Virus record (IMG/VR): IMGVR_UViG_3300012931_000083
Coordinates: 1 to 20,471 of that record
Origin: a virus
Reading direction: 5' to 3' (one strand)
Length of the DNA: 20,471 bases
Below are positions 3,323 to 17,645 of this stretch, one piece after another. Both the position numbers and the translations under genes were made by a program. Within the stretch, counting starts at the first letter, position 1; the number at the start of each line of letters is the position of its first letter. The notes beneath the pieces were generated by a model that did no database searches, was not told where the DNA came from, and worked only from the letters and a program-made list of their open reading frames with translations.

Positions 3323-5512
3323 TTATTTTATCCTTGCATTTTTTTGTCTTTCAATTAAAGAGCGTTCTATAAGTTCACCGTCGAGATAGATATTAATTGA
3401 TTGATTGCCGCCTGAACTATCGCCCTCTGCATATTGATTAACCATATTAACCATATTCTTATATGTATCATCTCTTAAAAGAACTTCATCCTTATTTGCC
3501 CGAAGCATTGTTGTATCGCCCGATATAGCACCGGTTGGAATTATACCGCCTTGCTCGCCTGAATAAGTTTGCGCGTTTACAATTCCTGTTTGCACGCCCG
3601 CCATTGCGAGAATAATTGCAGCCTCAGCCGCACCTACAATTGCGCCCGCTAGAGGTCCGAGTTGAGATACGCCCTGAGCAACAGCACCTATTGCTCCAGC
3701 CGCCGCATTAACCCATATCATGGCAATTTGCATTTTCTTTTGTTCTTCAAAACTTTTCTTTTTTGCGGCTGTAGTTTTCTTTTCTGCCTCTTCTTCAATT
3801 TGAGCTTTTTTTAATTCAGCCTGTTCTTTTATTTTTTGCTTTGCTAATTCTTCTTTTTTTATTTCAAGCTGTTCTTTTAATTCAGCTTTCTTTTTTACAT
3901 TATGAGTTTTAGCAATCTTTGCTTCAAGGTCTCCGATTTCTTTTTCAGTTGATGCAGTTGTATTCTCTTCAACAAGTCCTTGACTTTCATATTGTTCCTG
4001 TACCCATTCATCAACGCTTGCAAGTGAGTTTTCTTTCCATTCATCAATTGAAGTAATTTGATTGTCAAGTTGTGCCTGCATAGCCTCACTTGCTAAGCTC
4101 ATTGCTTGTCCAATTATGCCGGCTATTTTTGAAAAAGCACTTGATACCATATTAATTACAGAGCTTGCTTTTTCATCTGACGACATTGCCTTCCATGACT
4201 CTGCCCATTTTTCAGAAAAGCTTTTAGCCCCTTTTTCGCCCTTTCCATTTATATCGCCAATTACTTTTTTTTGTTTTTCAGCAGAATCGTTTGATTCTTT
4301 TTCCAACTTATCAGATAATTCTTTTTTCTTTTGCAAATAATAAGAATTATATTCATCTGCATTTTTTTTACTTTCAGTAAAAATCTTTTTTATATCTTCT
4401 GTTGCACCGACAACAATTGCCTTTGTATTATCAGCAACATTTCCCGCAAGCGTTTTTAGAGCCGATCCCGTTTCCGCAAATTGTTTTTTAACATCGTCCC
4501 ATTTCGCCTTACCTGTTATTAATTCAAAAACTTTTTCGATTGTTTTTCCAGCTTCTATAAGCGTTTTAACCCAGTCAACCCACGCTTGAATATTTAATTT
4601 TACAAAACCTACAACCATATTTAATCCGGCGTTCATAACACCAACGGCAATGCTGATAGCAGAAAAAGAAGCTTTACCGCCATCAAGATTTTTTGTCAAA
4701 TCTTTCCATAAATCAACAACAGGTTTAATTGCATCTTCAAGGCGTTTAAAAACATTAGAACCTATATCCATTACTATTTTTTTGAAAGTTTCAAACCCGG
4801 CTCCAATTGAAGATATTACTTTTGTATTTGTTAAAAAATTATTTAAAGCATTCGCTCCGTTTTTCATGGCATTAACTATGTCAATGCCAACAACTGACAC
4901 TATTTTTCCAAACGCTTCAAGATTATCCCCATTAATATTTTTTAGCTGATCTAATCCACCTGTAAAAGTTGCCGCCTTAGCCGTTGCTAAATCAAAACCT
5001 GCTGCGGCTTTTTCTTGAAGTATTGCCATTCGCTCTGCTTGCGTTCCGGCATTTTGCATTTCTGGAATGACACGATTAAGCATATTGAAATTTCCATTTT
5101 GAGCTTGCGATACCATTTTAAGGGCTTGATTAAGGTCTATCCCAAACGCTTCTGATAATCCAATAGCCGACTTTGTCGCATCGTTAATTTTTTCTCTTGT
5201 AATTCCTATTGAACCAGCGAGCGTTTGCATTGAAGTAATCTGATCATCTTCTAACGTTGTAGTACGCTGAATTGAGTTTGCAAATTTATTAAATTCTTCA
5301 ATATTTCCGCCGAGCTGTGTTTTTAAACGCGCTTGACCTTGTTCTGCTTCCCTAAATTCATTAATTGAATTTTTGACAGTATCTGAAAGAATTTGAAAAC
5401 CTTTTTTGATAGCTTCAACAGCAAGGGATGCCGTAATTATAGAGCCGGTTACTCCCTTAATAGCACCTGAAGCATTATCTTTGCCGTTAATTTCAATTTC
5501 AACTTTTGCCAT
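3323..5512 (-). CDS. Tail tape measure protein
   Basis: 729 aa, the longest gene in the window after the frameshifted chaperone, as expected for a tape measure, which sets tail length and is ejected with the DNA. Residues 1-55 are a small beta/helical start (MAKVEIEINGKDNASGAIKG) typical of tape measures; 60-200 are helical with glutamine-rich stretches; about 510-590 form a charged coiled coil (runs of K, E, A); about 590-650 are hydrophobic and Ala/Gly-rich, a candidate membrane-interacting segment; the end carries the common GGIIPTGAISGDTTMLRANK-type motif. With the usual relation of about 0.15 nm per residue the tail would be near 110 nm (inference). AAAGGA precedes the ATG. Several short overlapping ORFs on both strands are shadows of this gene. 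Confidence 0.92.
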   Translation of the reverse strand: MAKVEIEINGKDNASGAIKGVTGSIITASLAVEAIKKGFQILSDTVKNSINEFREAEQGQARLKTQLGGNIEEFNKFANSIQRTTTLEDDQITSMQTLAGSIGITREKINDATKSAIGLSEAFGIDLNQALKMVSQAQNGNFNMLNRVIPEMQNAGTQAERMAILQEKAAAGFDLATAKAATFTGGLDQLKNINGDNLEAFGKIVSVVGIDIVNAMKNGANALNNFLTNTKVISSIGAGFETFKKIVMDIGSNVFKRLEDAIKPVVDLWKDLTKNLDGGKASFSAISIAVGVMNAGLNMVVGFVKLNIQAWVDWVKTLIEAGKTIEKVFELITGKAKWDDVKKQFAETGSALKTLAGNVADNTKAIVVGATEDIKKIFTESKKNADEYNSYYLQKKKELSDKLEKESNDSAEKQKKVIGDINGKGEKGAKSFSEKWAESWKAMSSDEKASSVINMVSSAFSKIAGIIGQAMSLASEAMQAQLDNQITSIDEWKENSLASVDEWVQEQYESQGLVEENTTASTEKEIGDLEAKIAKTHNVKKKAELKEQLEIKKEELAKQKIKEQAELKKAQIEEEAEKKTTAAKKKSFEEQKKMQIAMIWVNAAAGAIGAVAQGVSQLGPLAGAIVGAAEAAIILAMAGVQTGIVNAQTYSGEQGGIIPTGAISGDTTMLRANKDEVLLRDDTYKNMVNMVNQYAEGDSSGGNQSINIYLDGELIERSLIERQKNARIK

Positions 5513-5513
5513 A

Positions 5514-5810
5514 TTATCCTTTTGCTATTCTTTCTCGATGTTCTTGTAATTCTTTTTGGAATTCAAAATCATATTTTGCATATATCATTTCTTTTCTTAT
5601 TTCTTCCCAAATACACATGAAAAATTCATCTTGATCATAATAACCGCCACTTCCTGGAAGATGAATCCAATTAAAATTATTAATATCAAGACATCCGACC
5701 GCATCTTGAACAAAACCAATCCATCTGCGATAGAACCTATCCTCTGATTGATTAATCCCTTGTAAAAAACTTCTAACCGTGAACTCTAATCCTGCAAAAT
5801 CAATTATTTG
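5514..5810 (-). CDS. Tail assembly chaperone, -1 frameshift extension (T part of G-T fusion)
   Basis: A frame of 98 codons opens exactly where the upstream chaperone ends and closes with TAA at 5514-5516, just before the tape measure start. It begins QIIDFAGLEFTVRSFLQG and ends EHRERIAKG, with a W-, D- and Y-rich middle (residues GGYYDQDEFFMCIWEE). It has no convincing start codon or ribosome binding site of its own. A -1 slip on the T9C run at 5810-5819 joins it to the upstream product, giving about 269 aa. In siphoviruses the two proteins made this way, the short G form and the longer GT form, coat the tape measure and recruit tube subunits. Order, length and slip site all fit; the read-through product is inferred. 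Confidence 0.82.
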   Translation of the reverse strand, partial: QIIDFAGLEFTVRSFLQGINQSEDRFYRRWIGFVQDAVGCLDINNFNWIHLPGSGGYYDQDEFFMCIWEEIRKEMIYAKYDFEFQKELQEHRERIAKG

Positions 5811-6322
5811 AAAAAAAAATTATTTGAAAAATCATCAATCTGTTTAATTATATATATAATTAATGGCTCATTTCCAATCGCTGAAAGGTATTCAAAGTTT
5901 AATTCTATTTTTTTTCCATCTTTATCGGTAAATGAATGTTTATCTTTATCAATTCCGTATTCAATCTTTATCTTTTCGATGTTAAGCGTAATATCATTCA
6001 TGTTTTCAGATTCTTTTGAATCTAAATTTAAACCCATATATATATCGAGTTTTTCTTCATCGGTAAGATTTTTATTAATATCCTTATATTCAACACCTTT
6101 TTCTTTTGCTTTTTTAAAGATAGCTTTACTTGTCGCCCCAGATAGAGTGTTTGTTGAAAGAAAATCAATTTTCTTTTTTATTGTATATGATATTTTTTTT
6201 ATAGTTACAAAATCTTCAAGAAATTTACCGGACGAATCAATATCTTTCATTTCATCCGGTATAAAATCACTAATTATTAATTTTTTTTCATTACTTTCAA
6301 TTATTTTATTAATATTTGCCAT
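5804..6322 (-). CDS. Tail assembly chaperone (G-like), unshifted product
   Basis: 172 aa, between tail tube and tape measure, the standard location of the tail chaperone. The sequence starts MANINKIIESNEKKL, is Lys/Asp/Ile-rich, and contains the segment NLTDEEKLDIYMGLNL and a helical end (PLIIYIIKQIDDFSNN). It ends NFFFK-stop, with the Phe codons forming the homopolymer used for frameshifting. I see no catalytic motif, as expected for a chaperone. AAAGGATAAACCG precedes the ATG. An open frame of 177 codons lies antisense to it, but the sense frame has the ribosome binding site and the conserved position. Family assignment is by synteny and the frameshift rather than by a recognised motif. Confidence 0.8.
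   Translation of the reverse strand: MANINKIIESNEKKLIISDFIPDEMKDIDSSGKFLEDFVTIKKISYTIKKKIDFLSTNTLSGATSKAIFKKAKEKGVEYKDINKNLTDEEKLDIYMGLNLDSKESENMNDITLNIEKIKIEYGIDKDKHSFTDKDGKKIELNFEYLSAIGNEPLIIYIIKQIDDFSNNFFFK
5810..5819 (-). promoter_or_regulatory. Predicted -1 frameshift slip site (T9C)
   Basis: On the coding strand the codons AAT TTT TTT TTC AAA TAA contain nine consecutive T followed by C. A -1 slip of two Phe tRNAs (TTT-TTC re-pairing as TTT-TTT) continues in frame as CAA ATA ATT GAT into the 98-codon extension. The unshifted stop is only three bases past the slip site. A run of nine T is also long enough for RNA polymerase slippage, so transcriptional slippage is an alternative mechanism. 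Confidence 0.78.
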
Positions 6323-6337
6323 TCGGTTTATCCTTTT

Positions 6338-7669
6338 TTAATAAGTTGTTGTATCTGCATCTACAACGCTAACATATATATGATTTGTATATGTGGCATT
6401 TGTTGGCTTTTCAGCACTACCCCCAAATTTTATTGTCATTCGATCAGGTGTAGAAAGAGTACTCGGTGCAGAATTGAATTTAAAAGCCGGTATTCTAACC
6501 ATTACCGAATAAGGTACTGATTTTGAAACATCTGCATAAGTATTTGATTTCCAATATACATATAATGAGCAAGCTGTTGAGTTAAGATAATTTGTCCTTA
6601 ACGGATATGATGTCGCTGTATTATTTGCAGTGCATGAAAATTCAATTGTTGACTTTTGTCTATCCTGTTCTTTTTTGTATTTGCTACCAATTACCCAGTT
6701 TGAATCAAGGTTTGCATTAATTGTCAAACTAAAATCTTTCAGCTCGTCAAGTTCTGTTAATGCACCTGTCGCATCTTCAATAACGGCTTTCATATTTAAA
6801 CAAGTAAAAGCCTGTATATTTGGAACACTTACCGATACATCGTTTTGATCTTGTAATTCCTGTTGAGCATCAACAGCTACATTGACCTTACAAAGATCGC
6901 CTGCGGCATTTGAAATGGCGACGGATTTAAATTTACTACCTATAACTCCAACCGATTTATTTGTCCCTAAAACTCTGTTGATCGTAAATGTATATGATGG
7001 TAAGCTAACACTTGCAGCAGCCGGCGATAGGTTATGAGTCTTAGCCAAAGTGGATGCTGTACCAACTACAGGGATTAATTTTCCACCAACTTTTACATCG
7101 TTTGTTATCAAATTAACAGCGGCAAAAGCGGCGATAGTTGATGTTAATGTTCCCGTCGGACCAAAGGCAATAGCATCAAATCCGGTATAAGCAGCAATAG
7201 CTGTAGCAACTTCTCCAACTGTATCAAAAGCTCCTGTTGTCAAATCCATAGTTCCGGTACTACAAAAAGCTGTATCCGCTCCCCATGTAGTTCCATTTGT
7301 TGAAGTTTCAGCAATAAGAGCGCTTCCTGTACATGAAATTCTTTCATAAGTAGCCGCCCCGCTATAAGAAATTAATAAATATGCAGTATTTGCATCTGCC
7401 GTGACATCTGTTCCAAGTATGCCGTGCAAAATTAATCCGGCTGTATCGCCATGAAAAGAACCTTCAAGCGATCCCTCAACTCCCTCTTTTACAGGAATAA
7501 ATTCTGTTGGATATAACTCCCCGATTAATGCGTTATCCTCAACATTTTCAATTTTATTTTCTAAACTTTCGCTTGAAGCTCTCCACATTGCATCGCCTGC
7601 ATTGTAAGAACCATAAGCATCTTCTTTTTTAAAAGCAATATTACCTAATCTTCCCGCGCGTATTGCCAT
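6338..7669 (-). CDS. Major tail tube protein with inserted domain
   Basis: 443 aa. The N-terminus (AGRLGNIAFKKEDAYGSYNA, then WRASSESLENKIENVEDNAL and GSLEGSFHGDTAGLILHGILG) fits the siphoviral tail tube family Phage_tube_2; family members are usually around 300 aa. The family pattern resumes at about residue 211 (THNLSP..., LPSYTFTINRVL) and continues to DRMTIKFGGSAEK near the end. Residues about 92-210 are therefore an extra Ala/Thr/Gly-rich beta domain probably projecting from the tube. Its ATG overlaps the stop of the upstream 58-aa gene (TAATG) with GAGGTAATATA ahead of it. No sheath-like gene is next to it, which indicates a non-contractile tail. Confidence 0.85.
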   Translation of the reverse strand: MAIRAGRLGNIAFKKEDAYGSYNAGDAMWRASSESLENKIENVEDNALIGELYPTEFIPVKEGVEGSLEGSFHGDTAGLILHGILGTDVTADANTAYLLISYSGAATYERISCTGSALIAETSTNGTTWGADTAFCSTGTMDLTTGAFDTVGEVATAIAAYTGFDAIAFGPTGTLTSTIAAFAAVNLITNDVKVGGKLIPVVGTASTLAKTHNLSPAAASVSLPSYTFTINRVLGTNKSVGVIGSKFKSVAISNAAGDLCKVNVAVDAQQELQDQNDVSVSVPNIQAFTCLNMKAVIEDATGALTELDELKDFSLTINANLDSNWVIGSKYKKEQDRQKSTIEFSCTANNTATSYPLRTNYLNSTACSLYVYWKSNTYADVSKSVPYSVMVRIPAFKFNSAPSTLSTPDRMTIKFGGSAEKPTNATYTNHIYVSVVDADTTTY

Positions 7670-16862: not shown

Positions 16863-17564
16863 TTATTGCTCAACCCTTTTAAAATTAACTATTGGTCTAT
16901 CGTCTTGGTCGTTTGGAGTATGGACGTACCCAGAATGCCCTATTTTGCAATTGCAGTCAAGATATATATCATACCCGATCTCTTTAGCTTTTTCGCAAAA
17001 TATAAAATCTTCACCCTTATATTTAATCTCACCCTTTTTGCCAATAAAAGGCATTTCAAAAATATTATAATCATACTTTTTAAATAAATCCAATAATACT
17101 TTTTTGTGCATTAAAAAGAATCCAAAGCCGCAGCCATCTATTTTTAACAATCCATTGCTTTGTTCAAGTAAAGGATTATAAGCATCGAGCGTATCATTAA
17201 TTAAATATGAGCAAATAAACCGATCAGTAGGGTGCCTCTTTAAATAAGACCCTGTTAACAGGTTAAGGTTATTTATATCAAATGTTTTTAATAAATTTAT
17301 AAAGCTTTCAAAAGTAAATGTTTGATCAGAGTCAATCCATAATACTACATCATAATTATCAGGATGATCAATTATTTGCCTTGCTAATACATTTCTGCTT
17401 TCCGGAATGTAGCCATGATCTGTATAAGCGTAAGTCGGAAAAAACCCATTACAAAACAATTTATTTATAAATAACATCATAGTTTTATATGATGCGTTGT
17501 CTATTGTTTTGAGAACGGGTTGCAGGATTGCTATTCGTCTATATTTTTGAATTAAATCTTTCAA
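16863..17564 (-). CDS. GT-A-type glycosyltransferase (family 2-like)
   Basis: The frame is open from a TTG at 17636 (257 aa), but a TTG at 17564 has AAAGG seven bases upstream and lies behind a TATAAT, so I prefer the 233-aa form (LKDLIQKYRRIAILQ...). Motifs in 257-aa numbering: strand IAILQPVL at 35-42, PESRNVLARQII at 78-89, LWIDSDQTF with the metal-binding DSD at 102-104, GCGFGFFLMHKKVL at 168-181, KGEDFIFCEKAKEIGYDIYL with the acidic pair at 209-210, and KIGHSG at 231-236. These are the order and spacing of nucleotide-sugar glycosyltransferases. Substrate is unknown: virion proteins, host surface glycan, or modified DNA bases are possible. Its location next to the terminase genes is unusual. 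Confidence 0.78.
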   Translation of the reverse strand: MKDLIQKYRRIAILQPVLKTIDNASYKTMMLFINKLFCNGFFPTYAYTDHGYIPESRNVLARQIIDHPDNYDVVLWIDSDQTFTFESFINLLKTFDINNLNLLTGSYLKRHPTDRFICSYLINDTLDAYNPLLEQSNGLLKIDGCGFGFFLMHKKVLLDLFKKYDYNIFEMPFIGKKGEIKYKGEDFIFCEKAKEIGYDIYLDCNCKIGHSGYVHTPNDQDDRPIVNFKRVEQ

Positions 17565-17584
17565 ACAATTACCTTTAATATAAT

Positions 17585-17615
17585 GCCGGTTTTTTATTAT
17601 ATTGGATATACCGGC
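17585..17615 (-). promoter_or_regulatory. Palindrome around a TATAAT ahead of the glycosyltransferase gene
   Basis: GCCGGT at 17610-17615 and ACCGGC at 17585-17590 (read on the minus strand) are inverted and flank a TATAAT hexamer at 17596-17601. No convincing -35 box lies 16-18 bases upstream. The layout would suit a promoter with an overlapping operator, or a leader hairpin. Predicted transcripts would begin just before AAAGG and the TTG at 17564. Confidence 0.4.
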
Positions 17616-17645
17616 GGAAAATCCTTGTTTCCGCAACGTTTTGGA

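Follow-up and report, generated by a model that had tools for sequence, protein, structure and literature searches.

We asked whether a run of nine T near the end of a small gene leads a phage to make two tail assembly chaperones, G and a G-T fusion, by a -1 slip, as the original prediction had it, and which machine would slip there. The sequence analysed is a 20.5-kb IMG/VR virus record of an uncultured phage with a GC content of 32%, referred to here, over its whole length, as the window. A -1 slip that yields two versions of the tail chaperone from one gene is common in tailed phages, and lambda gpG/gpGT, made by a programmed -1 frameshift on GGGAAAG, has counterparts across the long-tailed phages.

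Genome context and frame geometry

The minus strand of the window holds the late genes, namely those of the terminase, a Mu-type portal, a protease, a gpT-type capsid and head-tail proteins, followed by the tail tube, a 172-aa ORF, the tape measure and Dit. The gene of the 172-aa ORF (G) lies between those of the major tail protein and the tape measure, neighbours that were identified by PHROG matches and synteny. Elsewhere, a glycosyltransferase-like gene (16863-17636; phrog_1574, E=2.6e-21; phrog_34859, E=2e-11) lies upstream of the terminase genes, and the contig end (1-489) carries a tandem array of ~51-bp units in 9.5 copies, which also has a 102-bp period. The features of the locus are listed below; L023 and L024 are two relatives, IMG/VR 3300042535_000009 and IMG/VR 3300036712_000008, respectively.

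3323-5512, minus strand: tape measure protein (phrog_1272, E=0.0045; 38% identity over 722 aa to L023)
5514-5810, minus strand: T domain, 98 codons and a stop, -1 frame, no start of its own, open from CAA (5810)
5628-5669, minus strand: conserved T-domain motif W.HLP..GGYYDQD (P, GG and YDQD invariant across 9 phages)
5747-5753, minus strand: 3' arm AATCAAT of a possible AU-rich stem, pairing with ATTGATT
5798-5804, minus strand: 5' arm ATTGATT of that possible stem, located 5 nt past the slip, near the positions of the L023 and L024 stems
5804-5806, minus strand: 0-frame stop TAA of G, three bases (AAA) past T9C
5804-6322, minus strand: G, predicted tail assembly chaperone, 172 aa, 0 frame (position, homologues, weak fold match)
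5810-5819, minus strand: slip run T9C (T9 at 5811-5819, C at 5810), the only overlap of the 0 and -1 frames
5820-5822, minus strand: -1-frame stop TAA, directly upstream of the T run
6338-7669, minus strand: major tail tube protein (phrog_290 tail, E=1.9e-16; 49% and 47% identity to L023 and L024)

On the sense strand, G ends with GAT TTT TCA AAT AAT TTT TTT TTC AAA TAA, and its stop, after AAA, is where a 172-aa chaperone ending three bases past T9C had been described. The -1 frame is stop-free from the T run to the TAA at 5514-5516, 1 nt ahead of the tape measure ATG (5512), and thus fills the gap up to the tape measure gene, as was claimed. The claim that this 98-codon frame has no start of its own also held, no ATG, GTG or TTG occurring in it before the ATG of FF-M-CIWEE, at about two thirds of its length. 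Any shift would have to occur on TTTTTTTTTCAAA, the one stretch where the 0 and -1 frames overlap. The junction reads T9C, the pure-T slip site, unlike the GGGAAAG of lambda, that was originally proposed, with the small correction that it holds two overlapping in-frame heptamers, T_TTT_TTT and T_TTT_TTC.

The 98-codon open stretch is longer than any stop-free -1 or +1 stretch in the other genes (maxima of 69 and 72), and T9, the exact length of which comes from one metagenomic assembly, is the only run of at least eight T that the coding strand of the window contains. Synonymous resampling of the minus-strand genes showed one run of at least eight T where 3.2 were expected (P=0.05) and two runs of at least nine A where 6.1 were expected (P=0.01). 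This scarcity of long A and T runs outside the slip site is consistent with avoidance of slippage elsewhere. About 29 further in-frame A or T heptamers of the slip type are present in ordinary genes or in other parts of G, so a slip heptamer alone is not diagnostic.

The sequence around the slip site (5793-5840) is an imperfect 16-nt periodic repeat (TTTTTCAAATAATTTT / TTTTTCAAATAATTGA), for which the repeat analysis gave the 16-nt spacing in another register. As 16 is not a multiple of 3, the repeat copies at the slip site are read in different frames. Judging from this repeat, the T9 run may have originated by local duplication.

The downstream frame is a T domain

A profile built from the T domains of actinophages only was searched against all 397 stop-to-stop ORFs of at least 25 aa in the window. 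It matched the -1 frame with E=3e-6, while the next ORF had E=1, and the core common to the -1 frame and the actinophage T domains is W.HLP..GG.YDQD. Conservation at codon positions 1, 2 and 3 of the T frame was 0.65, 0.71 and 0.48, respectively, between the window and L023, and positions 1 and 2 were conserved above position 3 in both pairs that include the window. Between L023 and L024 the values were 0.51, 0.67 and 0.60 over 45 codons, position 1 not being above position 3. The prediction implied that the 98-codon frame should be conserved in sequence, and its protein is 48% identical in L023 and 40% identical in L024. On these comparisons, we consider that the downstream -1 frame is a real T domain.

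Two relatives share the fusion point

When viral contigs were scanned with the aligned T domain, seven loci were obtained, of which two, L023 and L024, are true relatives and the only close ones with G and T homologous to those of the window. The tail tube, G and T are syntenic in the three sequences, with identities to the window of 49%, 34% and 48%, respectively, in L023 and 47%, 31% and 40% in L024. The tape measure protein is 38% identical between the window and L023; the L024 contig ends before this gene. The T frame of L024 meets a stop at 4139-4167, inside the domain and 26 nt before the contig end, which is probably a contig-end error.

The L023 junction is GTC TTA AAA AAA AAG ACT (an A9G run) and that of L024 is TCC ATA AAA AAG TAG (an A6G run), and at both the T frame is entered by -1 on A_AAA_AAG. 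When the fused proteins were joined at the slip, all three aligned without gaps across the junction (FSNNFFF|QIID in the window, FSESFVLKKK|DYGG and FSNGISIKK|VEEV). The slip runs are thus at the same alignment position, and the junction DNA differs in each. The comparison of homologues that had been proposed for the frame overlap therefore came out in its favour, the position of the chaperone, the -1 direction and the fusion point being kept in L023 and L024; a separate start codon for the downstream frame, which together with a ribosome site would have spoken against the prediction, was found near neither junction.

Viral-contig scans with single proteins (G, T, tail tube, portal and capsid) gave no matches. 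Two genome scans, one queried with the portal and the other with the tail tube alignment, were equally empty, and no phage was matched when G, the tail tube, the capsid and the tape measure were searched by tblastn. The terminase matched many phages and eight viral contigs, and none of the eight contigs (0/8) matched other window proteins; these were set aside.

The G protein and the proposed G/GT pair

The predicted structure of G (pLDDT 74) had the HK97 tail assembly chaperone 2ob9 as its top PDB match, a weak one (E=0.77), and no confident match to a curated Pfam or PHROG family was obtained for G or T. A Pfam match of G to IF2_N (E=6e-5, below the cut-off of that family) was attributed to chance similarity in a Lys-rich helix, since it is absent from G of L023 and L024. 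Taken with the position of the gene and the T domain, the weak fold match indicates that the predicted function is tail assembly chaperone. The gene very probably encodes a lambda-type G/GT pair, whichever machine slips.

Most translation would stop at the TAA and give G (172 aa), and a minority fraction would shift -1 on T9C and give a 269-aa G-T fusion, made up of 171 aa of G up to FFF followed by QIIDF and the rest of the T domain. This fusion, of ~31 kDa, would carry the peptide SFLQGINQSEDR. With the ribosome as the main machine, tRNA-Phe would re-pair on U_UUU_UUU / U_UUU_UUC, RNA polymerase slippage on T9 possibly contributing. In lambda, G coats the tape measure protein and T binds the tube protein (PMC5009743). 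By analogy, we infer that G would coat the tape measure protein of this phage and that the T domain would recruit tail tube subunits; if G and T act as in lambda, we propose that the slip rate sets the G:GT ratio.

Ribosome or RNA polymerase

The original prediction left it undecided whether the ribosome or RNA polymerase slips. A stem a few nucleotides past the slip site is the usual layout of ribosomal -1 signals, and the tests for stimulators at the window, L023 and L024 covered stems. In L024, a 10-bp stem (GGTCGAGATT/AATCTCGACC) starts 7 nt after the slip, with a fold z of -3.6, and was matched by none of 2000 synonymous shuffles (P<0.0005). The stem of L023 has 7 bp and lies 6 nt past the slip (P 0.07-0.10 by synonymous shuffles). 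The possible ATTGATT/AATCAAT stem of the window is AU-only except for one pair; downstream structure in the window was not significant (fold z +0.5; P ~0.5), and this stem was rejected as a stimulator, about half of the synonymous shuffles matching it. No Shine-Dalgarno-like stimulator was seen by eye upstream of the window slip site. The strength of the stem seems to trade against the length of the slip run (strong with A6G, medium with A9G, none with T9C), a trend from three sequences, too few to establish it.

In Escherichia coli, U_UUU_UUC is an efficient heptamer of the H_HH.U_UU.Y class, and IS elements use it (PMC4066793); A_AAA_AAG is the dnaX site (PMC5009743). RNA polymerase slippage has a threshold of Tn, n>8 (PMC3711429), and runs of nine As or Ts slip in bacteria (PMC5009743). 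With a homopolymer of at least nine T or at least eight A at the junction as the criterion for transcriptional slippage, the length is reached by T9 of the window and A9 of L023; a long homopolymer is not kept in all relatives, L024 having A6 only. The junctions of the three sequences are all canonical in-frame heptamers (U_UUU_UUC or A_AAA_AAG).

For the group as a whole, the 10-bp stem 7 nt downstream in L024 makes ribosomal -1 frameshifting the best-supported mechanism, and since A6 is below the published polymerase limits, it is more likely that the ribosomal mechanism is the older one. Because the window stem is at chance level and T9 is at the polymerase threshold, either machine could slip in the window, with the ribosome favoured; it is probably the main one there. 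Both machines thus stay in play for the window, as had been suggested, and L023 and L024 tip the balance toward the ribosome.

It is possible, but rather unlikely, that RNA polymerase slips instead, some transcripts carrying U10 (or U7), normal translation of which would give the fusion. T9 meets the published limit of Tn, n>8 (PMC3711429; PMC5009743), L023 likewise has a 9-nt run (A9G), the window has no detectable ribosomal stimulator, and A runs of at least nine are depleted elsewhere in the phage, in which T9 is the sole T run of at least eight. However, L024 manages with a strong stem and A6G, a run shorter than the threshold, and the junctions in 3/3 cases hold a canonical in-frame X_XXY_YYZ heptamer, which the polymerase would not need. 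A more speculative idea, which we hold to be improbable, is that within one lineage the switch moved between machines, from ribosomal (L024) through mixed (L023) to mainly polymerase on T9 (window), with no change in the fusion point and presumably none in the product ratio.

The third reading, an assembly or sequencing error or a broken gene whose true form is one continuous ORF, is very improbable. Nine-base homopolymers are error-prone and the window is a single record, but the split recurs at the same position and in the same direction, on different DNA, in two independent relatives, the protein sequence of both halves is conserved, and the G/GT layout is the norm at such a genome position. 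Because the junction DNA differs in the window, L023 and L024, sequencing error or a decayed gene explains the shared layout poorly. That the T domain is made as a separate protein by re-initiation after the G stop is scarcely credible, since, although distant Marinitoga phages carry a T-like motif on a gene of its own that has an ATG and a ribosome site, no ATG, GTG or TTG lies near the start of the T frame in the window, L023 or L024, the first possible starts fall inside the domain at unrelated places, and re-initiation would need an ATT or ATA start that lacks a ribosome site.

Comparison with known systems

The layout favoured here, a frameshifted G/GT pair, resembles that of lambda in lying between the tail tube and tape measure genes, in the -1 shift near the 3' end of G, in the T frame without a start and in the short 0-frame tail past the slip. 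It differs in that the window slips on T9C, whereas lambda slips on G_GGA_AAG, and in having no demonstrable stimulator. The chaperones of actinophages (Rhodococcus phage Mbo2, Gordonia phages Jumbo and GMA3, and others; phrog_3096/phrog_9001) have the same W.HLP..GG.YDQD T domain, and G/GT frameshift joins are annotated in them between the tail tube and tape measure genes; unlike the window, they have actinobacterial hosts and other slip sites, and tblastn showed no similarity of the G domain to these chaperones. Compared with the window, L023 and L024 have A_AAA_AAG sites (A9G and A6G, respectively) and stronger downstream stems. The -1 frameshifting of the IS1 and IS3 families on U_UUU_UUC and the transcriptional slippage of the Shigella mxiE type on a homopolymer use the same kind of slippery run in unrelated genes. 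Our literature search turned up no paper in which a T run is named as the slip site of a phage tail chaperone.

Two other groups of phages gave side observations. The T-like motif of the Marinitoga phages is HLP..GG..DQ, and its placement in a separate gene is shared by the phage MPV1 and a second locus, L034. In MPV1, a terminator-like hairpin with a T tail (6322-6344) overlaps the G stop (0.1 expected), and by eye L034 has the same hairpin sequence; attenuation at this hairpin, in place of a frameshift, might determine the G:T ratio. In the Thermoanaerobacterium phage THSA-485A, an unannotated -1 frame (25856-26384) after a small pre-tape-measure gene would add a T-like domain (GWTFTELEQQPAYRIYQAMRF) and is probably a missed G/GT frameshift.

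The G/GT frameshift system is well known, as is the U_UUU_UUC heptamer, and the window is a divergent addition in which T9C differs from the A runs of its relatives. Through it, the known range of the conserved G/GT frameshift comes to include a low-GC, deeply divergent phage with a chaperone outside the family libraries, and the T domain of this phage is linked to the GGYYDQD T domains of actinophages. The series of three phages makes it testable whether ribosomal slippage can be swapped for transcriptional slippage with the same product.
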